From assembly GCA_001314865.1 (NCBI GenBank), contig LJZR01000032.1, positions 1 to 46,948 on the forward strand: DNA of 46,948 nucleotides, written 5' to 3'. Below, piece after piece: positions 1-12,848 of the stretch; position 1 is the stretch's first letter, and each line of letters begins with the position of its first letter. A program made the translations under genes and the position numbers. The notes below the pieces were generated by a model. The model was not told where the DNA came from. It worked only from the letters and a program-made list of their open reading frames with translations, and did no database searches. Source of the stretch: Phormidesmis priestleyi Ana (GTDB lineage: Bacteria; Cyanobacteriota; Cyanobacteriia; Phormidesmidales; Phormidesmidaceae).

Positions 1-189
1 CAGAGCCCCCAAATTTTGGGAAACCCATTATTGGCTCAAGGAATAAATCTTATATTTCTATAGGGGGCAATGCAGTATCTACGATTTAATTATGCCAACC
101 TACTTAACGTGCTGAGATGACGCTTTCTGTTGGGATTTTATTGAGATTTTATTGTAGTTTTGTTGCAATTTTGTTGCAATTAGGCAAAG

Positions 190-231
190 GTATCTAATCA
201 CACAATCTTGTCAAAATCCCCTCTGTACGAT
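190..231 (+). promoter_or_regulatory. Candidate NtcA-activated promoter of the formamidase gene
   Basis: GTATCTAATCACAC (190-203) matches the NtcA consensus GTA-N8-TAC at five of six fixed bases (CAC instead of TAC). Exactly 22 bases later comes TACGAT (226-231), which fits the TANNNT -10 box of class II NtcA promoters. The predicted transcript start is about 238, some 70 bases before the ATG. The spacing is the strongest argument; the single mismatch weakens it. NtcA is the global nitrogen regulator of cyanobacteria, which fits an ammonium-releasing amidase. Confidence 0.5.
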
Positions 232-242
232 GACCTCAGCTA

Positions 243-276
243 TATAGCTATAAATATAGCTATATCCATAGCTATG
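243..276. promoter_or_regulatory. Three iterated 10-bp palindromes with exact 12-bp period
   Basis: TATAGCTATA at 243-252 and 255-264 and CATAGCTATG at 267-276 are each self-palindromic and start exactly 12 bases apart. They lie between the predicted transcript start and the formamidase ATG at 310, so they would be in the 5' leader. They could be a cooperative operator, or fold into small hairpins in the RNA. No known regulator is recognised for this sequence. Confidence 0.4.
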
Positions 277-309
277 AAGAGTTATCAAGAGTTATGAGGA
301 GTAAAAGTC

Positions 310-1656
310 ATGTGGAAAGAATCCAGACGCTGGGCCTATGGATTGCTAGGGCTGGGCGTCGCTGTTGTGCTCACTTTAGGCAGTTTGTTTTTTGACTATG
401 GACGCGTATTTGCAGCTTCGCCCCAAAAGCACTATCTCGCGGCCAACGCCGAAACGGTGCATTGGGGCTATTTTAGCCAATTGATACCGCCCGAACTAAC
501 CATCAATTCTGGCGATATTGTAACTGTTGAAACGCTCACCCATCATGCCAACGACGATGCCAGTCGGATGGTGAAAGGCGATCCAGGGGCGGAGAGTGTG
601 TTTGCCTGGAGTGCAGATGCCAAGGGCGTTGACAGACGCGGTGCTGGGCCAATGGATGCTGAGGTAGGAGCGGGTGCTGGCTATGGCGTACATATTTTAA
701 CGGGGCCGATTTATGTGAATGGGGCTGAGCCCGGCGATGTCATAGAGGTACAAATTTTAGACACAGCGCTTCGGCCCAGCGCAAATCCTGAATATCGGGG
801 AAAAACCTTTGGCAGTAATGCGGCAGCCTGGTGGGGCTATCACTACAACGACCTGATTGAAGAGCCGAAGCCCCGCGAGGTAATCACCATTTATGAAATG
901 GACGCGACCGCAGAAGAGAATTGGGCCAAGGCGGTTTACAACTATCAGTGGGTTCCTCAAACCGACCCCTATGGCGTGGTTCATGAAACGATTGACTATC
1001 CTGGTGTGCCCGTAGATCACAGCACAATTGATAAAAATCTGGAGGTGCTCGAAGGAGTTCGGATACCGGTTCGGAACCATTTTGGCACCCTGGGATTAGC
1101 GCCAAAAGAGGCGGACTTTGTGAATTCTATTCCCCCCAGTTATTTTGGTGGCAATATTGACAATTGGCGCATAGGAAAGGGTGCAACCATGTATTATCCG
1201 GTAGCGGTAGAAGGAGGACTGCTCTCATTGGGAGATCCCCATGCGGCCCAAGGCGACTCGGAGCTCGCAGGAACGGCGATTGAAACTTCTTTGACGGGCG
1301 TACTGAAGGTGACTGTTCACAAACAGGCAGATTTACCCGGCACCATTCTAGAAGATCTGGACTATCCGCTGCTAGAAACCGACGATGAATATGTGGTGCA
1401 TGGCTTTAGCTATACGAACTATTTAGAAGAACTCGGAGAAACTGCTCAGGCCGATATTTTTGCCAAGTCTTCGGTAGATGGAGCTATGCGGGACGCATTT
1501 CGGAAAATGCGCCACTTTTTGATGACGACTCAAGGGTTGTCGGAAGACGAGGCTATTTCTCTGATGTCAGTGGCGGTAGACTTTGGAATCACACAGGTCG
1601 TAGACGGGAATTGGGGCGTGCATGGTGCGATCGCCAAAAGCGTATTGCCCGGTTGA
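310..1656 (+). CDS. Exported acetamidase/formamidase (FmdA/AmdA family)
   Basis: 448 residues. Enzymes of this family hydrolyse formamide or acetamide to the carboxylate and ammonium. Residues 1-36 form a signal peptide (basic start, long hydrophobic core, VFAA cleavage-like site), so the enzyme should be periplasmic, or membrane-anchored if uncleaved. Family blocks visible are VHWGYF near 50, the glycine-rich GPIYVNGAEPGDVIEV block near 137-151, GNIDNW followed by KGATMYYPV near 290, and LGDPHAAQGDSEL near 310. A GAGGAG ribosome site precedes the ATG by about 10 bases. The gene converges on the nitrile hydratase operon, whose product is an amide, so the two probably form one pathway. The export signal is odd because nitrile hydratase has none. 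Exact amide substrate is not evident. Confidence 0.85.
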   Translation: MWKESRRWAYGLLGLGVAVVLTLGSLFFDYGRVFAASPQKHYLAANAETVHWGYFSQLIPPELTINSGDIVTVETLTHHANDDASRMVKGDPGAESVFAWSADAKGVDRRGAGPMDAEVGAGAGYGVHILTGPIYVNGAEPGDVIEVQILDTALRPSANPEYRGKTFGSNAAAWWGYHYNDLIEEPKPREVITIYEMDATAEENWAKAVYNYQWVPQTDPYGVVHETIDYPGVPVDHSTIDKNLEVLEGVRIPVRNHFGTLGLAPKEADFVNSIPPSYFGGNIDNWRIGKGATMYYPVAVEGGLLSLGDPHAAQGDSELAGTAIETSLTGVLKVTVHKQADLPGTILEDLDYPLLETDDEYVVHGFSYTNYLEELGETAQADIFAKSSVDGAMRDAFRKMRHFLMTTQGLSEDEAISLMSVAVDFGITQVVDGNWGVHGAIAKSVLPG

Positions 1657-1707
1657 GATAGAGCAACAACAATAACGCCCGTCCCAACGGGAAAAAGACA
1701 CCAGAAA

Positions 1708-1752
1708 AGGGCTGTCGGACGATGGTTTTCATACTATTGGCCCGGCAGCCCT
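1708..1752 (-). terminator. Probable terminator of the nitrile hydratase operon
   Basis: Arms AGGGCTGTCGG (1708-1718) and CCGGCAGCCCT (1742-1752) pair with one G-U, with a 23-base loop. Read on the minus strand the hairpin is followed by a short T run (CCCTTTTC), 40 bases past the hupE-like stop. It lies between two convergent genes and may serve both, though the plus-strand side lacks a T run. Confidence 0.5.
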
Positions 1753-1792
1753 ATAAATTCAAGAAACTAAAACAAATCGATTGGATCAAGAA

Positions 1793-2455
1793 CTAACCCA
1801 AAACCACACCACTCATAACGGCAGCACCGACACCACACAGGGCGAATCCCATAAACCGCAGGTGTAACTGACCTTTCATCGCATTGGCCTTTAGCAAACT
1901 CTCTCCCAGCACCCAAGCGCCTAAACTAATTGACAGTTGAATAGTGGCAAAGCCAACCAGGTAGGCAACCAGCGGTGTCATATCGGCACCCACCACCGCT
2001 TCGCCATAAGCATAGCCATGAAACAAACCGGCCATCATCCCCAAAGCCGCCACTGCGGGCAAATTAAGCGACTTACCCACAGCGAGAACCAAACCGAACA
2101 ACAAAATTGATACAGAAATCATAAATTCTGGTGCAGGCAAATTAAACAGCCATAAATGCAGCCCAGTGCCGCCCAACGACGCCAACACAAAAGCAATGGG
2201 GATTACAATGCCCCGGCGCATCAGGGCACCGACAAGGCCAGCAGCAATCACAAAGGCGAGATGATCTATTCCAATGACGGGATGCGCCAAGCCGGAAAAC
2301 AGCCCTTCAAACATATTGGCTGGCAAACGCCCGTCCAACGGATGATGGGCGAAGGCCGGAGATGAAAGCAACAGCAGCGATACTATGCCTAAGCCAACAA
2401 TGCAGCTCCCCCGCTGAATAGACTGAATCACCTGGGTTTTTAGATTTTTTCTCAT
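1793..2455 (-). CDS. HupE/UreJ family nickel/cobalt permease
   Basis: 220 residues with a signal-like hydrophobic start ending SPAFA at about 36, immediately followed by HH, then about six membrane segments. HupE/UreJ signatures are visible: the HHPLDG start of the mature protein, HPVIGIDHLAF around 58-68 and FHGYAYGE around 145-152, whose histidines and acidic residues bind metal. The family imports Ni(II) or Co(II). No hydrogenase or urease gene is nearby, while the operon encodes a cobalt-type nitrile hydratase and a CobW-type chaperone, so cobalt supply is the likely role (inference). AGAGGAG lies 9-10 bases before the ATG. It is the last gene of the operon. Confidence 0.8.
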   Translation of the reverse strand: MRKNLKTQVIQSIQRGSCIVGLGIVSLLLLSSPAFAHHPLDGRLPANMFEGLFSGLAHPVIGIDHLAFVIAAGLVGALMRRGIVIPIAFVLASLGGTGLHLWLFNLPAPEFMISVSILLFGLVLAVGKSLNLPAVAALGMMAGLFHGYAYGEAVVGADMTPLVAYLVGFATIQLSISLGAWVLGESLLKANAMKGQLHLRFMGFALCGVGAAVMSGVVLG

Positions 2456-2531
2456 GTTGACTGGTCTCCTCTGGGTGTATTGAATGTTGAAAGGTGTTTA
2501 ATGTTGAAAGGGATAGACTGTTGAAGGATAT

Positions 2532-2888
2532 TTAAGAATGTGTTGCTTTGCAGTTCAAAAGCTGCATAGCCTCCGCTTCTAGCTCACCTGAGGCCAGCAC
2601 GCCTGACTTTACAATCATCTTTTCTAGGGTTGTCAGCCAGCATTGGTAATAGTCCCATTCAGGGTCATCGAGCGCATGAGTGGTTTCCCATTCTTTAATG
2701 GTGACCATGAGCATTTGCCGAAACTCCTCCCATTCATAGTGACCTTGTTTGGAGAGTGCGATCGCTACCCCAAAAGCCATTTTTTCCCAATCGCGATCAA
2801 AATGGAGATGACCCGCCCGGCGCGGGGGCGCTTCTTCGGGTGACCCCATCAAACTGGTAGCGGCAAAGTGTTCAAACTTTGTAAACAT
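2532..2888 (-). CDS. Nitrile hydratase accessory protein
   Basis: 118 residues, soluble. It resembles the N-terminal half of nitrile hydratase beta subunits (pattern FDRDWEKMAFGVAIALSKQGHYEWEEFR), as known small nitrile hydratase activators do; these help load cobalt into the alpha subunit, by a subunit-swapping mechanism in well studied systems. It sits directly after the alpha gene, separated by 69 bases made almost entirely of a 14-bp tandem repeat. AGGAAAGAG precedes the ATG. Length is normal for the accessory family and too short for a catalytic beta subunit, which is present upstream. Confidence 0.75.
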   Translation of the reverse strand: MFTKFEHFAATSLMGSPEEAPPRRAGHLHFDRDWEKMAFGVAIALSKQGHYEWEEFRQMLMVTIKEWETTHALDDPEWDYYQCWLTTLEKMIVKSGVLASGELEAEAMQLLNCKATHS

Positions 2889-2900
2889 ATCTCTTTCCTA

Positions 2901-2956
2901 ATTGCACTGGCCTTATTACACTGGCCTCATTACACTGGCCTTACTACACTGGCCTC
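2901..2956. repeat. Tandem repeat, 14 bp x 4, between NHase alpha and accessory genes
   Basis: Four 14-base units of the form ATTACACTGGCCTY run from 2901 to 2956, with a fifth partial copy entering the alpha gene stop codon at 2958. They fill the spacer of the operon. Confidence 0.9.
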
Positions 2957-2957
2957 A

Positions 2958-3581
2958 TTACACCTGAACAGTGGCTACGCCCATCATGGCCTCTGGCGTC
3001 AGCAACGCCGCCAAGGCTTCCTCACTCATGCCTTCTGTTCCAGCAGGGCGCATGGGCAGCACCCACCAGCGAATCTGGGCACTGCTATCCCACACTCGAA
3101 CTTCAACCGATTCATCCAACTCCACCCCAAACTCAGCGAGCACTACGCGAGGCTCTCGCACCACGCGGGCTCGGAAGGTGGGATCTTTAAACCAATAGGG
3201 CGGAAGCCCTAAGGTTGGCCATGGATAGCAAGAGCACAAGGTACACACAATCACGTTATGCACCGCTGGCGTATTCTCTACAATCCGCATGTGCTCACCT
3301 TCTGCGCCAGACATACCCGCCGGAAAGTCCAATTCATCACACGCGGCATTACAGTCCGCAATCAAACGCGCCTTAAAGTCTGGATCTACCCAGGCACGCG
3401 CCACGAGCTTTGCCCCATTAAAAGGCCCCATTTCTGTTTCAAAATAGCCCAGCACCGTATCGACGGTATTGCCTGTAATCACACCTTTTTCAATTAAAAG
3501 AGACTCTAGTGCCTTGACCTTAGCCGCACTAAAGGTTTCTCTATCTGCATCGTACTGAAATCCTGGATAGTTGCTTGGCAT
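2958..3581 (-). CDS. nthA: Cobalt-type nitrile hydratase, alpha subunit
   Basis: 207 residues, the usual length. The metal-binding claw [10 protein letters not shown] is at 112-121, with Cys113, Cys116 and Cys118 as predicted ligands. Thr between the first two Cys (CTLCSC) marks the cobalt class, whereas iron enzymes have CSLCSC. In the family the last two cysteines become sulfinate and sulfenate. Other family blocks are [18 protein letters not shown] near 57-73 and [13 protein letters not shown] near 137-149. The enzyme hydrates nitriles to amides in the cytoplasm; no signal peptide is seen. AAAGGAG lies 8-9 bases before the ATG. It follows the beta gene (beta-alpha order), as is common for cobalt enzymes. 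A thiocyanate hydrolase gamma subunit is the alternative, but the unsplit beta gene argues against that. Confidence 0.9.
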
Positions 3582-3649
3582 TTGTTTTGCTCCTTTAGTA
3601 TTGTCCCTTTAATGTTGTTTCTTTAGTCTTCTCCGCTCATTTTGTTGGA

Positions 3650-4396
3650 CTAGGCTGCCTCAATATAGGCTTCAAAAATGTCGTTGTAATAAATCATATT
3701 TGGCTCAGTTGTCGTCGCTTCCCAAAGCGTTTCGGCTTGAAAGGCCAAACTATATACCGGCATAGGCTCCCCAATCCCATCGGTAGTCGGGAAAAAATAA
3801 GCGAAGGCATTGTCGTATACCTTAATGACCGTGGCGATTTTTCCTTTCAAGTTTCCAGGCAAACGACTGTGCTCTCCCGAATTGACCTCTTTTATTTTTA
3901 CTTGATCGCCCAGTGCAAACTTAGGCGGGGCCGACAAGGCCCGCATCGGAGAATCGCCTTCGCGTAAATACTTCACGACCTGCTCATCAATGGCCGGTTC
4001 GCCGCCTTGGGGCAGTGGGGCCGCAGCCAGTTCGCTACTGGCCAAAAATTCAGCTGTGCGGGTGTCTAATTCTTCTTGGGTGATGTAGCCTTCTGACACA
4101 AAAAAGCCAGAAATACCGCCCAGCCACTTCTCGTAATAACGCAGTCGGAAGTATTCAAAAGGGTGCATGTTTTCTGCGCCCATACGCAGATGCCCCCAGG
4201 TCCAAAAGCTTTCAAACGTCGTGGGAACTTCTTCAATTGCATATTGGGGCGGCGAAGAACCGAGCTGATTGCTGAGCGCCATCATGGCCGTATGGATGCC
4301 AAAAATTCGTTGTTCCCAGGGTTCAACAAATACTTGTACTTCGGTGTTGATAGGGTCTAACCCTTCTAGCCCGCCGAGATTGTGCTGTAGTTTCAT
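3650..4396 (-). CDS. nthB: Nitrile hydratase, beta subunit
   Basis: 249 residues when started at the ATG at 4396 (MKLQHNLGGLEG), which matches family N-termini. An open frame continues 31 codons upstream but that part is unlike the family, and no clear ribosome site supports either start. The N-terminal helical part contains FEPWEQRIFGIHTAMMAL-like sequence, and WTWGHLRMGAENMHPFEYFRLRYYEKWL near 80-107. The C-terminal barrel starts around 160 with FALGDQVKIKEVNSGEHSRLPGNLKGKIATVIKVY, typical of the beta domain. Both halves are in one chain, unlike thiocyanate hydrolase, where they are separate subunits. It pairs with the alpha chain 68 bases downstream. Confidence 0.88.
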   Translation of the reverse strand: MKLQHNLGGLEGLDPINTEVQVFVEPWEQRIFGIHTAMMALSNQLGSSPPQYAIEEVPTTFESFWTWGHLRMGAENMHPFEYFRLRYYEKWLGGISGFFVSEGYITQEELDTRTAEFLASSELAAAPLPQGGEPAIDEQVVKYLREGDSPMRALSAPPKFALGDQVKIKEVNSGEHSRLPGNLKGKIATVIKVYDNAFAYFFPTTDGIGEPMPVYSLAFQAETLWEATTTEPNMIYYNDIFEAYIEAA

Positions 4397-4477
4397 AAGT
4401 TTGCGAATGTAATCAGTTGAGGTGAATGATTGAATAGAGAATGTTGATCTACAAAATTGTTGGCCTGTGAAATTATT

Positions 4478-4561
4478 AGGCTTCTGCACTTAGGCTTCTG
4501 CACTTAGGCTTCTGTACTTAGGCTTCTGCACGTAGGCTTCTGTACTTAGGCTTCTGTATAT
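4478..4561. repeat. Tandem repeat, 14 bp x 6, upstream of NHase beta
   Basis: Six consecutive 14-base units AGGCTTCTGYACKT with only point differences occupy nearly half of the 178-base spacer between the CobW-like gene and the beta gene. Confidence 0.9.
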
Positions 4562-4574
4562 CGAGACGACCTAA

Positions 4575-5564
4575 CTAGCCAACGCAGGCAGCAACAGGCA
4601 GATCGCTAAAGCAACCCTGAAACCCTTCTCTTAGCTCCGCTTCGTCTAAATTTCGGCCAATAAAAACCAGCTCATTGCGGCGCGTTTCTGTCGGTTTCCA
4701 AGGTTTTCCAGGCCGACCCTCTAGCGTCATATGAACGCCCTGAAACACAAATCGCCGCTCGGCATTATCCACATCTAAAATGCCTTTCATCCGAAAAATA
4801 TCTGCGCCCCGCACCTGTACGAGCTGATAGAGCCAGCGGTTGAGCTTATCACTATCAACACTACCTTGCGCAGTAATTGCCACCGAGCCCACAGAATCGT
4901 CATGTTCATGGGCTTCCTCTTCTAGGAAGGCCGGATCGATGCTCAAAGCATTTTTAAGATCGAAGGCTTGCACGCCTAGCACGGTATCGATAGCAATGTC
5001 ACAGTTTTGGGTGAAATGAATTTTAGCGATCGTATTCATCTTCCTTACCTTGCTCTCCAATGCCCGCAATACATCAGCAGAAACCAAGTCTGTTTTATTG
5101 ATCAAAACAACATCGGCAAACGCAATCTGCTCTTGCGCTTCACTACTCTCCCAATGATCCCAAATATACTTAGCATCTACCACAGTCACCACAGCATCTA
5201 GCTGGGTTGTTTGCAGCATCACTTCATCCATAAAAAAAGACTGAATCACCGGGGCCGGATCGGCCAATCCTGTTGTTTCAATCACCAAATGGTCAAAGCC
5301 GTCTGGGCGAGACATCAGCTCACTAATCATCCGAATCAGGTCGCCCCGCACCGTACAACAAATGCAGCCATTGTTCATTTCAAAAATCTCTTCGTCGGCA
5401 TTCATCACCAGCTGATGATCAATCCCCACTTCGCCAAACTCATTGACAATCACCGCCACGCGCTGGTTGTGTTCTTCGGTAAGAATGCGATTGAGCAGAG
5501 TCGTTTTTCCCGCACCCAAGTATCCGGTCAATACAGTGACCGGAATCTTTTGCAGTAAAGCCAT
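4575..5564 (-). CDS. CobW/P47K-family GTPase, probable cobalt chaperone of nitrile hydratase
   Basis: 329 residues of the COG0523 family. Walker [10 protein letters not shown] is at 14-22, [13 protein letters not shown] at 42-54, the metal-binding CxCC motif (GCICC, 67-71) follows, then [10 protein letters not shown] near 95, the NKTD guanine-specificity motif near 155, and a C-terminal CobW_C domain after about 230. A short acidic/His stretch EEEAHEHDD lies near 215. Members deliver Zn, Co or Fe to target enzymes using GTP, and one branch (P47K) is the nitrile hydratase activator. Its position in the operon directly upstream of beta-alpha indicates cobalt delivery to this enzyme. Confidence 0.85.
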
Positions 5565-5632
5565 AGGTTATAGTCTCTCTCTTGAAGTATTCATCAAACC
5601 GTATTCATCAAACCGTATCGAAGCGCTAGAAG

Positions 5633-6577
5633 CTACGTCGCTACAACCCGGAAGCCAATGGTGCGGTTTAGCCCTGTTTCGTCATACCCAGAGCGATTAG
5701 TCGAGCGCAGTTTATCTGGACCATCTAACCAACTTCCGCCTCTGATTGCTCGCTGTGTCTGGGCCCTGGCTTGTCTGTACAGCCCCTGGCGATCAGCGGC
5801 CTGCCACTTATCCGCACACCATTCCCAAACATTGCCGTGCATGTCATGCAGTCCAAAAGCATTCGGCAAAAAATCACCGACCGGCAGCGTCGATTTGCGA
5901 TAGCGACCGGGAGGTTCAGACTTGTATGTGTAAGTGCTAACATAGTCAGCCATATTGCCGGTAATGGTTTCGCCTGTGTGAAAGGGGGTATGAGTGCCTG
6001 CCCGGCAGGCGTATTCCCATTGCGCTTCACTGGGCAGTTGATACTGACGGCCCGTGTGTTTGGTGAGGCGATCGCAAAACTCCACCGCCTCTAACCAAGA
6101 AATACTCTCTACAGGTAAGGCACTCCCTCGAAAGTGAGCCGGGGCTGGGGCTAATTCTCTGTGAATTTTAGGCAATGCTGCGATCGCGGCCCACTGAGAC
6201 TGCACAATCGGATACTTACTGATAAAAAAAGGCGACAGCTTAACACGACGGTGAGAAGACATGCCCCCTGAGAGGGCGACCATCTCTAACCGAGTATCAC
6301 TGCTTTCGCCACTATGCCTTTTTGTGTATGGTAACGACTCAGAGAAAAACTGTGCGGTGAAAGACTGCTGTTGTGTAATTCGACCAGCGCGATCAACAGT
6401 CGGCGTACGATAGGTGAAAGATTCTAAAGGAGCACCAATAGAAGACTTCGGAACCTTGGAGTTAGAGGACTGAGCGCCTGCCGCTTGGGCAACACTTGCC
6501 AATGAACTCTCTTTACTCGCAAGGACAAGACCAACACCTCCAAAACTCGCGTACTGAAAGAACTTTCTTCGCTTCAT
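5633..6577 (-). CDS. SUMF1/FGE-like domain protein with Tat signal, lacking the FGE catalytic cysteines
   Basis: 314 residues. The start MKRRKFFQ plus a hydrophobic stretch to about 33 looks like a twin-arginine signal, so the protein is probably exported folded. From about 90 a formylglycine-generating-enzyme fold follows: the ISKYPIVQSQW block, SWLEAVEFCDRLT, LPSEAQWEYACRAG, DMHGNVWEWC, RGGSWLDG and GFRVV at the end. True FGE enzymes carry two active-site cysteines after RGGS; here RGGSWLDGPDKLRSTNRSGYDETG contains none, so sulfatase activation is unlikely. It is the first gene of the nitrile hydratase operon (68 bases before cobW), with GAGGAG 12-13 bases before the ATG. Its role there is unknown. 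Confidence 0.75.
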   Translation of the reverse strand: MKRRKFFQYASFGGVGLVLASKESSLASVAQAAGAQSSNSKVPKSSIGAPLESFTYRTPTVDRAGRITQQQSFTAQFFSESLPYTKRHSGESSDTRLEMVALSGGMSSHRRVKLSPFFISKYPIVQSQWAAIAALPKIHRELAPAPAHFRGSALPVESISWLEAVEFCDRLTKHTGRQYQLPSEAQWEYACRAGTHTPFHTGETITGNMADYVSTYTYKSEPPGRYRKSTLPVGDFLPNAFGLHDMHGNVWEWCADKWQAADRQGLYRQARAQTQRAIRGGSWLDGPDKLRSTNRSGYDETGLNRTIGFRVVAT

Positions 6578-6637
6578 ACACGCTATAACTCCTCAATAAT
6601 TTATCGAGTGATTGCAAACTGGTGCCATCAATATCAG

Positions 6638-6687
6638 GAATCTGGCATCAAGAATCTGGCATCAAGAATCTGGCATCAAGAATCTGG
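6638..6687. repeat. Tandem repeat, 14 bp x 3.6, in the leader of the nitrile hydratase operon
   Basis: GAATCTGGCATCAA repeats perfectly three times from 6638 with a partial fourth copy to 6687, 60-110 bases upstream of the SUMF1-like ATG. It lies in the 375-base spacer 6578-6952, which must hold the operon promoter or act as a long read-through spacer after the ABC ATPase. Confidence 0.9.
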
Positions 6688-6835
6688 CCCGCAACCGGAA
6701 ACTAAAATCAGTAAACAACAAAGGCTGTTGCAATAATTGTATTCATCAACACATTTGCCTACTTACGTAAGGAAACAAAGATATTTGCGTGAGACTGTTT
6801 CTCAAGAAGCAAGACAAACAATTGTTAAGTTTAAG

Positions 6836-6857
6836 AATATACTCAACACGGTATATT
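6836..6857. promoter_or_regulatory. Inverted repeat AATATAC-N8-GTATATT
   Basis: Perfect 7-base arms (6836-6842 and 6851-6857) with an 8-base spacer. The geometry is that of a dimeric regulator site, with TAC-N8-GTA at the centre: the reverse order of the NtcA consensus. It lies about 260 bases upstream of the SUMF1-like gene and 96 bases past the ABC ATPase stop. Also nearby is the 10-base palindrome CTTACGTAAG (6764-6773). Regulator unknown. Confidence 0.35.
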
Positions 6858-6952
6858 CCCAGATTGTTTGACGCCAGGAAAATTTGATCGCCTATTATTG
6901 AAAAAATAGAAGAAATTCGACACTTGCCGACCGTCGCGAGTCTATAATCGCC

Positions 6953-7807
6953 CTAATTCTCCATACTCTTCAATGTCTCTTCTCGAATTAAATCAAACAC
7001 CTGCCGACTAATCTGGGTAAAGTCGGGCGTCAACATATCGTCTAGCTGGCGGGGCCGAGGTAAGGGAACCGATAACTCAGCCTTAATACGACCTGGCTGT
7101 ACGCCCATCACAAAGATGCGATCGCCCAAAAACACAGCCTCCTCAATATCGTGAGTTACAAACACAATAGTTGTCTTCAGCGTGTCCCATACATTCAATA
7201 GCAGCGCCTGCATCATGTGCCGCGTCTGCGCATCTAGCGCCGCAAAAGGCTCATCCATAAGCAGTACCGACGGCGAATTTACCAGGGCACGAATAATACT
7301 CGCCCGCTGTTTCATCCCACCCGATAGCTCACTGGGGTAAGCATCCCGATACTTTGCCAACCCAACCAAATTCAAATACTCGCCCACAATATCCTGCCGC
7401 TCAGCCTTGGGCAAGCCCTTAATCTTCAGTCCTAACTCCACATTTTGAAACGTGGTTTTCCAAGGCAACAAAGAATACTGCTGAAACACAAACCCTCGAT
7501 CGGCCCCTGGTTTTGTCACCGGTTGCTGATCGACCATCACATAGCCTGATGTCGGCTGCACAAACCCAGCAATAATGTTCAACAGCGTTGACTTACCACA
7601 GCCTGACGGCCCAAGCAAGCAAGCGAGTTCACCGGGCTTTATTTGAAAGTTTACCGAGTCCAACACTTGATTTGTTTTACCGCGATGACGCAGCCTCTCC
7701 TGCGGAGAGTCGCCAAAGATCATCGACACCCCTTCTACATTCACCGCTCCTTTTACAGCACTTTCTATTTTTGGCACTCTTGTCAATGTCTCTCGTCCCA
7801 CGCGCAT
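6953..7807 (-). CDS. NitT/TauT-type ABC importer, ATP-binding protein
   Basis: 284 residues. Walker A GPSGCGKST near 68-76, Q-loop FVFQQYSLLPWKTT near 106-120, signature LSGGMKQR near 162, Walker B VLLMDEPFAALD near 181 and the H-loop VTHDIEEAVFLGDR near 218 are all intact. The class is that of NrtD, SsuB and TauB. GAGGAG lies just before the ATG at 7807, and the gene is 38 bases behind the permease gene. It energises the importer encoded upstream and is probably co-transcribed from the NtcA-type promoter at 10462-10503. Confidence 0.9.
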   Translation of the reverse strand: MRVGRETLTRVPKIESAVKGAVNVEGVSMIFGDSPQERLRHRGKTNQVLDSVNFQIKPGELACLLGPSGCGKSTLLNIIAGFVQPTSGYVMVDQQPVTKPGADRGFVFQQYSLLPWKTTFQNVELGLKIKGLPKAERQDIVGEYLNLVGLAKYRDAYPSELSGGMKQRASIIRALVNSPSVLLMDEPFAALDAQTRHMMQALLLNVWDTLKTTIVFVTHDIEEAVFLGDRIFVMGVQPGRIKAELSVPLPRPRQLDDMLTPDFTQISRQVFDLIREETLKSMEN

Positions 7808-7845
7808 CAGCTCCTCAGCATTTTAATTCCAACACATCTCACTTT

Positions 7846-8709
7846 TTAGGCGCCCTGTTTCTTAATCACGCGCCAAGGCATCAATGCCTGCATCCCGCGC
7901 CCTACCGCCCAAGAACTCATTGCTCCCATCAGCCCAATCAACAACATCCCCATCACAATCGGCGGATAATTCGACGTCACATAAGACTCCCAGGTAATAT
8001 AGCCCACACCATATCGCCCCGCTAAAATCTCAGCCGTCACCAGGCAAAACCAAGCATTTCCCATGCCAATTGTCAGGCCACCTGCAATTCCCGGCAATGC
8101 CCCCGGCAGCACAATATCCTTGAAAATAAACCACTTATTAGCGCCCAGGCATTGCCCCACTCGAATCAACACAATGTCATGCAAAATATTCTCCACCGCG
8201 CGAATCGTACTGATTAAAACAGGAAAAAACGCACCAATAAACGTGATGTAAATCATCCCGGTTTCAGCCGTCGGAAAAATTAAAATCGCCAGAGGAATCC
8301 AAGCCACTGCTGGAATCGGTCGGAGCAACTCTAGCCATGGCATCATCAGATCTTCAATGATTTGAAACCAGCCAATGAACAGACCTAAAATAACGCCTAA
8401 TACCGAAGCAACTGCGAAGCCCAACAGCACGCGCGAAACACTCGATCGGATATGGACGCCCGGATCACTCGTGAAAAATTCTACCGTAGCGCCTACAACC
8501 TCCCAAGGAGAGGGCACTAGCTGAAAATTAATGAAGAACTTAAAGCCCGTTATGCATAGAACCTGCCAGATGCCAAAAAAGAGTATGAGCGACAAACAGC
8601 GAGTGGCTGAGCGGTTGGCAAAAAAGAGAATTTGGAGTGTTCGCCACAGCTTGGCCACTGGGGCAACAGCATCAGCATGAACACGACTTTGAGGAAGGGT
8701 GCTAGCCAT
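7846..8709 (-). CDS. NitT/TauT-type ABC importer, permease
   Basis: 287 residues with about six membrane segments and the BPD-type EAA loop near 190-210 (LIRVGQCLGANKWFIFKDIVLPGALPGIAGGL). FFGIWQVL and LELLRPIPAVAWIPLAILIF are typical of SsuC/TauC/NrtB permeases. It would form the homodimeric channel for the lipoprotein encoded 116 bases upstream. Substrate specificity cannot be read from the sequence. Confidence 0.9.
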   Translation of the reverse strand: MASTLPQSRVHADAVAPVAKLWRTLQILFFANRSATRCLSLILFFGIWQVLCITGFKFFINFQLVPSPWEVVGATVEFFTSDPGVHIRSSVSRVLLGFAVASVLGVILGLFIGWFQIIEDLMMPWLELLRPIPAVAWIPLAILIFPTAETGMIYITFIGAFFPVLISTIRAVENILHDIVLIRVGQCLGANKWFIFKDIVLPGALPGIAGGLTIGMGNAWFCLVTAEILAGRYGVGYITWESYVTSNYPPIVMGMLLIGLMGAMSSWAVGRGMQALMPWRVIKKQGA

Positions 8710-8825
8710 GATAAAAAGCGATTTAAAGAATAAGGTCAGGAAGGTCTAGTGAAAGACCCAAGGAAAAGCCTATGGAAAGGCCCAAACGCATATCCCTTGG
8801 GAACAAGAGGCAAGCGATCGCCCCC

Positions 8826-10433
8826 CTATCCGGCCAACATCGGCAACACCCGCTCTAGCGCGAGCAACAACCGATCCCTTGTCAACCGGCTCATCTGCAC
8901 AGGCTGTGGCCCACTCGCATAGGTTTGCAGCAAGTCCTTAAAGCTCGTCACCTGACCGCCTGATTCAGCCGCAAACGCCTTCGCATCATCTGCCAACAAA
9001 AAGGCCGATACCTCATCGCCATTCGTCACATAGTGGGAGTTTTCTGCAAACAGCTTCCAGCCTTTATTACGATCATGTACAAAAATAACATCAGCCGCTT
9101 TTCCTTCTTCCTGCAAGGTATTTAGCTGCTTCACCATATTGGGAATCGAAGCAAAATTAGTCACTGTCGGTTCTTCTTGAATCCACAGTTGAGCCGCCAT
9201 TTTCGGATCTGTAATCTCCTCATCGGTCAGGGCATCTTTCCCGGTAATCACATAGCTTTCACCCTCTGCAATCACCTCGTCGTAGTCCAGCCCCGACTTC
9301 TCCATCGCATTTTTCAAAAAGCCTTCGTCTACCCATGCTGTCACATCTTCCGGATCTACAGGTGACTCAATTTTTCCTAAACTAATCAGCGTAGCAATGC
9401 TATTTTTCAGCGCACTTAGCTGCACCTCGCCAATGCTCGGATTAATCGGCTGTAAACCCGATGGCCCTAAAAACATGTACACAACTTCTTTCTCAATTCC
9501 AGACCACTCTTCAATCTGAGCAGAAATCTCTTCTGGCTTTTCTCGAAACATTTGATTGGCTTCGAGCACTGCTTGGAGATAAGCCTCGACAATTTCAGGA
9601 TGTTCTTCAGAAAAGTCAGAGCGAACGACAATTCCATGCAGCGTTGGCACATTGGTTTGGGCACCGTCAAAAATCTTTTTAGCGAATCCTCGAAAAGGAA
9701 ACAGTTCTCCAAAAGGAACAAAGTCCGCATGGGCGTCAATTTGTCCGGTTCGCAAGCTGGTGCCGCCAACTTCGGGTGATTGGCTAATCAGCTTCACATC
9801 TTTTTCTGGGTCAATGCCTGCATCCTTTAGCGCCTTAAGAACCATGCCGTGAGCCGCAGAACCAAAGGGCACCGACACAGCGCTCCCTTTGAGATCGGCC
9901 AAAGATTCTACGTCACTATCTTTGGGCACAACGACTGCATTCCCTGCGCCGTTAGGACTGTAGGCGAGGGTGCCAATAAAGGTTGACTCAACCCCTTCTA
10001 ATTCTTCTTGAAACTTGATCAAGTTAATGACGGCAGGGAAGTCTCCCATTAGGCCGATATCAATTTGGTCGGCAAGCATTTTGTTGGTAATAGGCGGGCC
10101 AGAGGTATAGCTCGACCATTCAATCTCGTACTTTACGCCCTCATACTTTCCAGTGGTTGGCAAGTACTTTTCTAAGAGGCCTAATTCTCTTACCGTAGCA
10201 CCGCCAACAGCTGTATTAATGACCTGATCTTGCGTGCCAATAGAGATTCGGATCGTTTTTCCACTGTTAGATCCAGTCGAGCCAGCTTCGGCGCTGGCGG
10301 TTTCAGTTGCGTTCTCTCCGGGTGCTGCCGTTTCGGATGGGCTAGAGCAAGCAACCAGTGTTGTAGAGAGGGCCAACACACAGGCAACGGAAAGGCTTTT
10401 CAACCAGGTGTAGGTAAAATTATTGGGCTTCAT
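8826..10433 (-). CDS. NitT/TauT-type ABC importer, substrate-binding lipoprotein with extra C-terminal domain
   Basis: 535 residues, longer than the usual 320-400. Lipobox LVAC ends at Cys29, followed by a Ser/Thr/Ala-rich linker to about 58. Residues 60-375 are an NMT1/SsuA-like binding fold (KTIRISIGTQDQVINTAVGG, DIGLMGDFPAVI, LKGSAVSVPFGSAAH, GQIDAHADFVPFGELF). The remaining 150 residues hold an added domain whose end (SAFLLADDAKAFAAESGGQVTSF, 476-498) resembles NosL-like proteins, though a NosL metal site is not seen. First gene of the importer operon, with AAGGAG before the ATG and a perfect NtcA box upstream. Candidate ligands are a nitrile, amide or related small nitrogen compound, inferred from the neighbours. 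Confidence 0.85.
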   Translation of the reverse strand: MKPNNFTYTWLKSLSVACVLALSTTLVACSSPSETAAPGENATETASAEAGSTGSNSGKTIRISIGTQDQVINTAVGGATVRELGLLEKYLPTTGKYEGVKYEIEWSSYTSGPPITNKMLADQIDIGLMGDFPAVINLIKFQEELEGVESTFIGTLAYSPNGAGNAVVVPKDSDVESLADLKGSAVSVPFGSAAHGMVLKALKDAGIDPEKDVKLISQSPEVGGTSLRTGQIDAHADFVPFGELFPFRGFAKKIFDGAQTNVPTLHGIVVRSDFSEEHPEIVEAYLQAVLEANQMFREKPEEISAQIEEWSGIEKEVVYMFLGPSGLQPINPSIGEVQLSALKNSIATLISLGKIESPVDPEDVTAWVDEGFLKNAMEKSGLDYDEVIAEGESYVITGKDALTDEEITDPKMAAQLWIQEEPTVTNFASIPNMVKQLNTLQEEGKAADVIFVHDRNKGWKLFAENSHYVTNGDEVSAFLLADDAKAFAAESGGQVTSFKDLLQTYASGPQPVQMSRLTRDRLLLALERVLPMLAG

Positions 10434-10461
10434 GTTTAGGCAACTCCTTGTGAATTGCCTT

Positions 10462-10503
10462 ATTTAATCTGTGAGGCTAGCTAGCATTTGTATCTCTACG
10501 TAC
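10462..10503 (-). promoter_or_regulatory. NtcA-type promoter of the ABC importer operon
   Basis: Read on the minus strand: GTACGTAGAGATAC (10503-10490) is a perfect GTA-N8-TAC box. After exactly 22 bases comes TTAAAT (10467-10462) as -10 box, then AAGGAG and the ATG at 10433. The box also sits inside a wider inverted repeat GTATCT/AGATAC (10490-10495 and 10504-10509). This is the canonical class II layout of NtcA-activated nitrogen genes. Confidence 0.75.
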
Positions 10504-10629
10504 AGATACCGAGCTGTAGGCCTTTTTGTGGATAACGATTTTAAGTGAACCCATAAAATTCTTTTGTAGCAATGATTGCTTAGCGATAGGGTCTACACGG
10601 CTCGGTATGGGCGTGGTTTAAAGGTCGAT

Positions 10630-11016
10630 CTACTGACCGAACACTTGCTTTAATACGGCTAGGCGCGATCGCTCCCAATAGTCCACATGAGAACAAATCA
10701 ACCCGGCTTCATTCACACCTAGCTCCGTGTGGCCAGGAATAGAAAGCCGGGGCGACCAAGGCAAAGGAGCCGTCATATTCAACGTCCACTTTAGAGTGAT
10801 GAGTGAGGGGTTAACTTGCTCAATGTTGTGCAGATCCATTTGAACATCGCTAAAAAACCAGCCGAGAAAGCCAATCATGCTCCGGTACTTGGCAACCCCA
10901 TCAAACTCATTCATCGGATCTTTAAAATGCACATCGTCCGCATATAAAGCGTAGGTTTGATCCTTTGGGAATCTAGCGTAGTCCTGCTTTAGCTGCGCCA
11001 CCAAATCCATCTTCAT
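10630..11016 (-). CDS. DUF2358 family protein (SnoaL/NTF2-like fold)
   Basis: 128 residues, soluble. The pattern LKQDYARFPKDQTYALYADDVHFKDPMNEFDGVAKYRSMIGFL and the closing HVDYWERSRLAVLKQVFGQ mark DUF2358, a small family of cyanobacteria and plastid-bearing plants with an NTF2/SnoaL-like cone fold. No biochemical function is established. It lies between the groEL terminator and the NtcA-type promoter of the importer operon, so it is probably transcribed alone. A second in-frame ATG two codons on is an equal start candidate. Confidence 0.8.
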   Translation of the reverse strand: MKMDLVAQLKQDYARFPKDQTYALYADDVHFKDPMNEFDGVAKYRSMIGFLGWFFSDVQMDLHNIEQVNPSLITLKWTLNMTAPLPWSPRLSIPGHTELGVNEAGLICSHVDYWERSRLAVLKQVFGQ

Positions 11017-11086
11017 AAGCTGCTCTTTTTTCCTTTAATTACTCAACTTCGCCCCATAGCCACACCTTATAAAGGTATCAGTTGAC

Positions 11087-11128
11087 AATAAAAAAGCGGA
11101 CTGCCCGAAGACAGACCGCTTTTTTATT
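11087..11128 (-). terminator. Rho-independent terminator of groESL
   Basis: 17-base arms (11087-11103 and 11112-11128) pair with one mismatch around an 8-base loop; the GC-rich core GCGG/CCGC is flanked by A6 and T6 runs, so it works in both directions. It lies 70 bases past the groEL stop and ahead of the DUF2358 gene. Confidence 0.9.
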
Positions 11129-11198
11129 TTTAAAACCCAACAAGAGGTTAAATAACCTTACAAGAGGTTAAATGACTTTAGATGACTTTTAGATGACT

Positions 11199-12848
<1,650 letters not shown>

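Follow-up and report, generated by a model that had tools for sequence, protein, structure and literature searches.

NtcA class II promoters and the site ahead of the importer

The closest described elements are the NtcA class II promoters, among which the excerpted text of Picossi et al. 2014 (PMC3898017) names those of urtA, nirA, ntcB, and glnA and for which it gives TAN3T as the published -10 consensus. According to the same excerpt, the 40 strongest of the NtcA regions detected by ChIP-seq in Anabaena carry T4 and C5 together with A at positions 10 and 11, and a gap of 22 nt separates the NtcA box from the -10 of ilvG (PMC3898017). For the kind of genes that lie downstream in the locus described here, an excerpted report on Arthrospira PCC 8005 (PMC4509649) records up-regulation of nthA1, nthB2, and formamidase under nitrogen limitation.

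We analyzed a stretch of 46,948 bases from Phormidesmis priestleyi Ana (the whole of which is called the window), in which a three-gene ABC importer of the SsuA/TauA/NrtA kind (10433-6953) is preceded by an NtcA-type site (Table 1). In minus-strand order, GTACGTAGAGATAC (10503-10490) is followed after exactly 22 nt by TTAAAT (10467-10462), then by AAGGAG and by the ATG at 10433; the intergenic gap with the box is 196 bp long, and the DUF2358 protein gene upstream ends at 10630. Rereading the window sequence returned the box, the 22-nt spacing, TTAAAT, the strand, and all coordinates exactly as a preliminary description of this DNA had given them, and the start expected at -41.5 from the box center is by arithmetic 10455, in agreement with the position predicted there. 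That description had spoken of a perfect class II NtcA promoter. The class-II-type arrangement, the box, and the spacing were borne out, the last being exactly 22 nt where NtcA class II promoters have about 22 nt from box to -10, whereas the word perfect is too strong, since TTAAAT departs from TAN3T; for this reason we file the site as class-II-type rather than as a canonical example. We hold with high confidence that it is an NtcA-activated class-II-type promoter of the importer with a non-consensus -10, with NtcA binding, the start of transcription, and nitrogen induction as its predicted properties. Sigma-70-like promoter matches number eight in window positions 1-11200 and none coincides with the NtcA-type site, as is expected of an activator-dependent promoter.

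Table 1. Features of the importer locus and of the nitrile hydratase genes downstream (window coordinates)
Feature	Position	Strand	Remark
NtcA box GTA-N8-TAC	10490..10503	-	GTACGTAGAGATAC; extended form TGTA-N8-TACA
Spacer, 22 nt	10468..10489	-	little conserved across species
-10 hexamer TTAAAT	10462..10467	-	kept as WTWAWT, not TAN3T
Predicted transcription start	10455	-	arithmetic: box center 10496.5 minus 41.5
Probable ribosome-binding site AAGGAG	10444..10449	-	
Substrate-binding lipoprotein, 535 aa, SsuA/TauA/NMT1 type	8826..10433	-	C-terminal NosL-like stretch
ABC importer permease	7846..8709	-	
ABC importer ATPase	6953..7807	-	
Degenerate NtcA-like box GTG-N8-TAC, second unit	6739..6752	-	counterparts in relatives
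-10-like TTTACT	6710..6715	-	23 nt past degenerate box
FGE/SUMF1-domain protein	5633..6577	-	first gene of second unit
CobW-type GTPase	4575..5564	-	
Nitrile hydratase beta subunit	3650..4396	-	start codon uncertain; ORF opens at 4489
Nitrile hydratase alpha subunit	2958..3581	-	
Nitrile hydratase accessory protein	2532..2888	-	
HupE/UreJ family protein	1793..2455	-	
Acetamidase/formamidase family protein	310..1656	+	convergent

Rarity of the arrangement in the genome

By itself, GTA-N8-TAC is at chance level. The window holds 4 such boxes (one of them, 4532-4545, is part of a 14-bp tandem repeat) against 3.94 expected from shuffles, and a genome background of 20 stretches of 20 kb each (400 kb, about 6.7% of 5.93 Mb) holds 94 strand-wise matches, equal to 47 sites. 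Both figures are in keeping with the view that a six-letter palindrome lies ahead of the gene by accident. Because the box is at chance level in one sequence, our argument rests on comparison across species.

Among what would speak against its reading, the preliminary description had listed many equally good boxes elsewhere; boxes with N22-TTAAAT number 0 in the 400-kb sample, and WTWAWT at 22 to 23 nt follows 0 of the 94 strand-wise boxes there and 5 of 176 other boxes in the flanks of relatives' loci. A box with N20-24-TTAAAT has 1 match in the 400 kb, before a formamidase-family gene, and the extended form TGTA-N8-TACA occurs at 3 places (6 counting both strands). Looser patterns are unspecific, as N20-24-TAN3T gives 7 matches in the 400 kb, some of them before genes with no evident nitrogen tie, and N22-T[AT]NNNT gives 4.

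The locus with the single N20-24-TTAAAT match (L104:3457-8685, contig C40 of the same genome) comprises a binding protein (assigned by eye), a formamidase-family gene, an ABC ATPase, a permease, and a cyanuric-acid amidohydrolase, the genes of the last two coming after the ATPase gene. The box is located between the divergent formamidase-family and ABC ATPase genes with a -10-like hexamer on either side, and the locus is likely a second one for nitrogen scavenging.

Conservation of the site among cyanobacteria

Of 63 genomes of the order, 28 encode a lipoprotein orthologue, as do 53 of the 388 that were drawn from the class; for named genomes, 352 loci were confirmed, of which the best 80 were kept. 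We counted sites in 70 distinct cyanobacterial upstream regions, each of at least 300 bp, after merging 25 duplicate pairs; L029 (a fragment) was dropped before the count, L068-L087 (wider stretches of loci already counted) were excluded, and L050 and L151 (295 bp) stand outside the 70, L050 being inside the 71-row profile set and the family table. GTA-N8-TAC was found in 54 of the 70 regions, against a mean of 4.11 and a maximum of 11 in 100 dinucleotide shuffles. The box with WTWAWT at 22 to 23 nt was found in 46 of the 70, against a mean of 0.09 and a maximum of 2 (100 runs), the hexamer pattern having been defined after inspection of the sequences and the 46 being related sequences rather than independent events. 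Thus, 46 of the 54 boxes, the window's own among them, have WTWAWT at 22 or 23 nt, whereas TAN3T at 20 to 24 nt accompanies only 5 and is missing from 49.

A profile built from the 54 boxes, equivalent to about 32 effective sequences, consists of two conserved islands, TGTATCT...TTTACAG and ATTAAA. Since the GTA and TAC columns are conserved through row selection, only the remaining columns count as evidence, namely, T at -1 (1.41 bits), T, C, and T at 4 to 6 (0.81, 0.64, and 0.97 bits), T at 11 (1.09 bits), and the A and G following TAC (1.35 and 0.80 bits) in the box island, besides 0.65 to 1.19 bits in the -10 island. The spacer columns 18 to 32 reach at most 0.41 bits, and most flank columns off the islands are also low. 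Two islands around an unconserved spacer are what an activator bound next to a -10 would leave behind, rather than recent descent alone. An accidental palindrome would account neither for the recurrence of the hexamer at its distance far above the shuffles nor for islands that are kept while the spacer between them is not, and we consider it very improbable.

In the window, the TATCT half of the box is on the opposite strand, the same as in L004, L006, and L007, and a symmetrical dimer would allow this half on either strand. The inner T4 and C5 of the footprint match the letters of the Anabaena regions, whereas positions 10 and 11 are T and T rather than A.

Broken down by family (51 loci), the box with WTWAWT is present in families f1 (25 of 27), f23 (7 of 7), f15 (4 of 9), f7 (1 of 1), and f28 (1 of 1) and absent from f5 (0 of 2), f25 (0 of 2), f29 (0 of 1), and f35 (0 of 1). 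A perfect box is absent from 16 of the 70 regions, including those of two Fischerella, Pelatocladus, a Nostocales MAG, four of five Prochlorococcus rows, and a Synechococcaceae single cell; L023 is one letter short of the box (GAC for TAC). In the Bradyrhizobium group, outside the cyanobacteria, 0 of 34 orthologue regions have the box; these are GC-rich regions in which only 1.68 are expected and 0 occurred in 33 of 200 shuffles, so that their value as a negative control is small. One Bradyrhizobium locus has a CRP-type regulator gene (L174:7971-8744) directly ahead of the orthologous importer, in the position that the NtcA box occupies in many cyanobacteria.

NtcA and its expected targets in the same genome

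An NtcA gene is encoded in the genome (374.9 bits, cut-off 244.95) and is itself preceded by a box with TTTAGT at 23 nt. Besides, a type III glutamate-ammonia ligase (C88:167396; 576 bits, cut-off 469.6) and a glutamine synthetase-family protein (C88:154309; under every cut-off shown) are each preceded by a perfect box, N22, and TTTACT. Within the 400-kb sample, which excludes C88:167396, a box with at most one mismatch and TTTA[AC]T at 22 to 23 nt occurs at a single place, before C88:154309. This assembly holds no type I GlnA above cut-off, so that the classic glnA control is absent. Among four Amt-family matches, one is preceded by a box from which CATACT is 22 nt away, and the other three have no box in the 1,500 bp scanned upstream; nor does the best nrtB-type permease match have a box in 1,500 bp upstream, where the operon start may be more distant.

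A different regulator of the CRP/FNR family could in principle act at the site instead of NtcA. In its favor, the NtcA model has 7 further matches in the genome, all under its cut-off, and a CRP-type gene lies directly ahead of the importer in the Bradyrhizobium locus L174. However, the core and the inner T4 and C5 are those of the Anabaena ChIP-seq NtcA consensus as given in the excerpt of PMC3898017, and a like arrangement stands before the glutamine synthetase-family genes, so we regard another family member as improbable and NtcA as the regulator to be expected. The preliminary description had placed the importer under nitrogen control on the strength of box and spacing, which alone are insufficient; the assignment is nevertheless supported, as is that of a class-II-type NtcA promoter, by the cross-species footprint, the specificity of the arrangement in 400 kb, the glutamine synthetase-family parallels, and the presence of NtcA.

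In the mechanism that we propose, nitrogen shortage would raise 2-oxoglutarate, and an NtcA dimer would then occupy GTA-N8-TAC at 10503-10490, centered at -41.5, and recruit RNA polymerase to TTAAAT, a weak -10 that departs from the consensus, with a start near 10455. The transcript from about 10455 would cover the lipoprotein, permease, and ATPase genes, and a second, degenerate NtcA-like promoter in the gap of about 375 bp behind them would drive the FGE-CobW-nitrile hydratase unit. The importer is thus probably switched on under nitrogen shortage in many cyanobacteria, as far as can be judged from sequence.

Importer genes and possible substrate

No NCBIfam family was shown above cut-off for any of the importer genes, for the ATPase among the 25 of 187 matches listed. 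The lipoprotein scores 129.2 bits (E 1.7e-37) with the SsuA family (TIGR01728), under the cut-off of 163.5, and the best of its relatives with solved structures bind sulfonates and taurine. The NosL-like stretch covers residues 410-504 (E 2.5e-6; 28.3 bits, cut-off 24); a Bradyrhizobium orthologue has a weak NosL-like match under cut-off.

In the loci of 37 distinct relatives, the importer is near a LysR-type gene, whose product has about 670 aa, and near a divergent flavoprotein gene. Several loci also have, next to these, genes for a HEAT-repeat protein, for an Mrp/NUBPL-type ATPase (L167), and for a small protein that by eye resembles a ferredoxin (L084), a cluster that was not seen in L048, L076, L077, and L082. 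A membrane protein of PF03601, the family to which YeiH belongs, is encoded both in the locus of Prochlorococcus (L167) and in that of Bradyrhizobium (L174), with look-alikes (by eye) in L069 and L070. In the genome of the window, the LysR, flavoprotein, and HEAT protein genes are on a separate contig, C109. The flavoprotein has the PAPS reductase alpha subunit as its best solved relative (8a8o, 242.7 bits), followed by APS reductases, and bears the NCBIfam name fumarate reductase/succinate dehydrogenase flavoprotein (PRK08275). Its gap to the LysR gene (L049-L067, L127-L172) contains a box in 17 of the 37 distinct relatives' regions, several of these boxes sharing a form that ends in TACAAA, and no box in the own genome; in the species with boxed gaps, the flavoprotein may likewise be under NtcA control.

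The LysR-type regulators are about 660 to 670 aa long (L207:4507-6510 on C109 of the own genome, L084:4720-6714, and L167:10025-11998). Their C-terminal half is homologous to the importer's binding protein (L084 versus the window, 34% identity over residues 345-661, E 3.8e-59), and they also match SsuA-family and NMT1 models; judged by these matches, the regulator seems to have incorporated its own version of the domain with which the importer senses its substrate. A LysR-NMT1 fusion had no match in the literature searched, mostly outside subscription journals.

Such a regulator with a fused substrate-binding domain is another candidate for binding the conserved site, given its gene and the flavoprotein within the importer loci of these 37 relatives and on C109. 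LysR-type regulators bind a T-N11-A motif, but the 24-letter consensus of the conserved island has no such pair; the GTA/TAC halves and the predicted centering at -41.5 fit NtcA, and Prochlorococcus L167 keeps the LysR gene with no box in the region scanned. We therefore give very little credence to LysR in place of NtcA as the protein bound there; it may well act in addition to NtcA.

Since the neighboring genes point to sulfur chemistry and the boxes to nitrogen, we infer that a compound with both would be the simplest reconciliation. Tentatively, and as a less likely than likely extension of the promoter reading, NtcA might govern an undescribed cyanobacterial module composed of the importer, the APS/PAPS-reductase-like flavoprotein with its small partners, the PF03601-type YeiH-like membrane protein, and the SBP-fused LysR, whose binding domain would serve as an intracellular sensor, for nitrogen-controlled scavenging of an N-bearing organosulfur compound, taurine- or sulfamate-like. 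The module reaches Prochlorococcus, where only one of five rows has a box before the importer.

Nitrile hydratase genes downstream

The FGE gene starts about 375 bp after the ATPase gene, and the TTTACT ahead of it is the hexamer found at N22 before the two glutamine synthetase-family genes. Among 12 FGE upstream regions (11 relatives and the window), a perfect box is present in 5, against 0.67 (maximum, 3) in 200 shuffles, and a box with at most one mismatch and TTTA[AC]T at 22 to 23 nt in 6, against 0.04 (maximum, 1), this hexamer having been defined after inspection of the FGE loci; 3 of the 12 (L238, L245, and L255) are without any candidate. In the window, GTR-N8-TAC occurs 25 times versus 19.19 expected, with no clear excess. 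From these comparisons, the nitrile hydratase genes appear to form a second unit under a separate NtcA-type promoter, degenerate in the window. Together with the importer, they would make two nitrogen-controlled units side by side. A single promoter driving all genes as far as HupE is not our default, since FGE has an NtcA-like promoter of its own. The gap between the ATPase and FGE genes has one weak hairpin (6930-6917), terminator-like sites in the region number 16 versus 13.0 in shuffles, and the fold of the gap is not significant (z, -0.98); with so weak a terminator signal, read-through into the second unit is possible. Metal uptake by the HupE/UreJ protein is a conjecture drawn from the name of its family.

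Five period-14 tandem repeats with differing units (2897-2963, 3592-3627, 4476-4556, 5587-5618, and 6633-6688) lie in or beside the gaps of the nitrile hydratase unit.

We also considered whether the neighborhood marks the importer as one for nitriles and rejected this, as nitrile hydratase is present in 0 of 40 relatives' importer stretches (6.2 to 12.6 kb). Conversely, the lipoprotein is present in 0 of 20 relatives' nitrile hydratase stretches (2.7 to 9.5 kb, some ended by contig ends), and the pairing in the window is accordingly not general. In 3 of these 20 (L238, L243, and L247), another ABC ATPase, 40 to 43% identical to that of the window, lies on the same strand ahead of the nitrile hydratase genes. 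An importer of some kind beside nitrile hydratase genes may thus recur.

Comparison with known systems

The nitrile hydratase cluster of Arthrospira PCC 8005 bears on the second unit, not on the importer, of the window through the response of nthA1, nthB2, and formamidase to nitrogen limitation recorded in the excerpt of PMC4509649, although the organism is another. SsuA/TauA importers resemble the window's importer in the solved relatives of the lipoprotein and in its similarity to the SsuA model, whereas the latter importer is under the SsuA cut-off and adds a C-terminal NosL-like stretch and an NtcA box. An importer annotatable as a sulfonate transporter becomes, through its promoter and not its protein sequence, a probable gene of the nitrogen-stress response across many cyanobacteria.

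The promoters of the two glutamine synthetase-family genes on C88 share with the site the perfect box, exactly 22 nt, and a hexamer TT...T; the hexamer letters differ (TTTACT there), those genes are not for uptake, and those promoters are also predictions. In the literature searched on NtcA with sulfonate ABC transporters, nitrile hydratase, and formamidase, mostly outside subscription journals, no NtcA-type promoter of this importer was found, and as far as that literature goes, we describe a known kind of element at a new target gene. A box and a spacing that are ordinary in a single genome become strong evidence under comparison.

With the canonical NtcA class II promoters, the site has in common GTA-N8-TAC, about 22 nt to the -10, an expected center at -41.5, and a nutrient-uptake gene behind it, whereas its -10 is TTAAAT instead of TAN3T and its description here comes from sequence alone. 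This suggests that, in these lineages, TTNNNT is acceptable as the -10 of an NtcA promoter, and searches confined to TAN3T would miss such sites.
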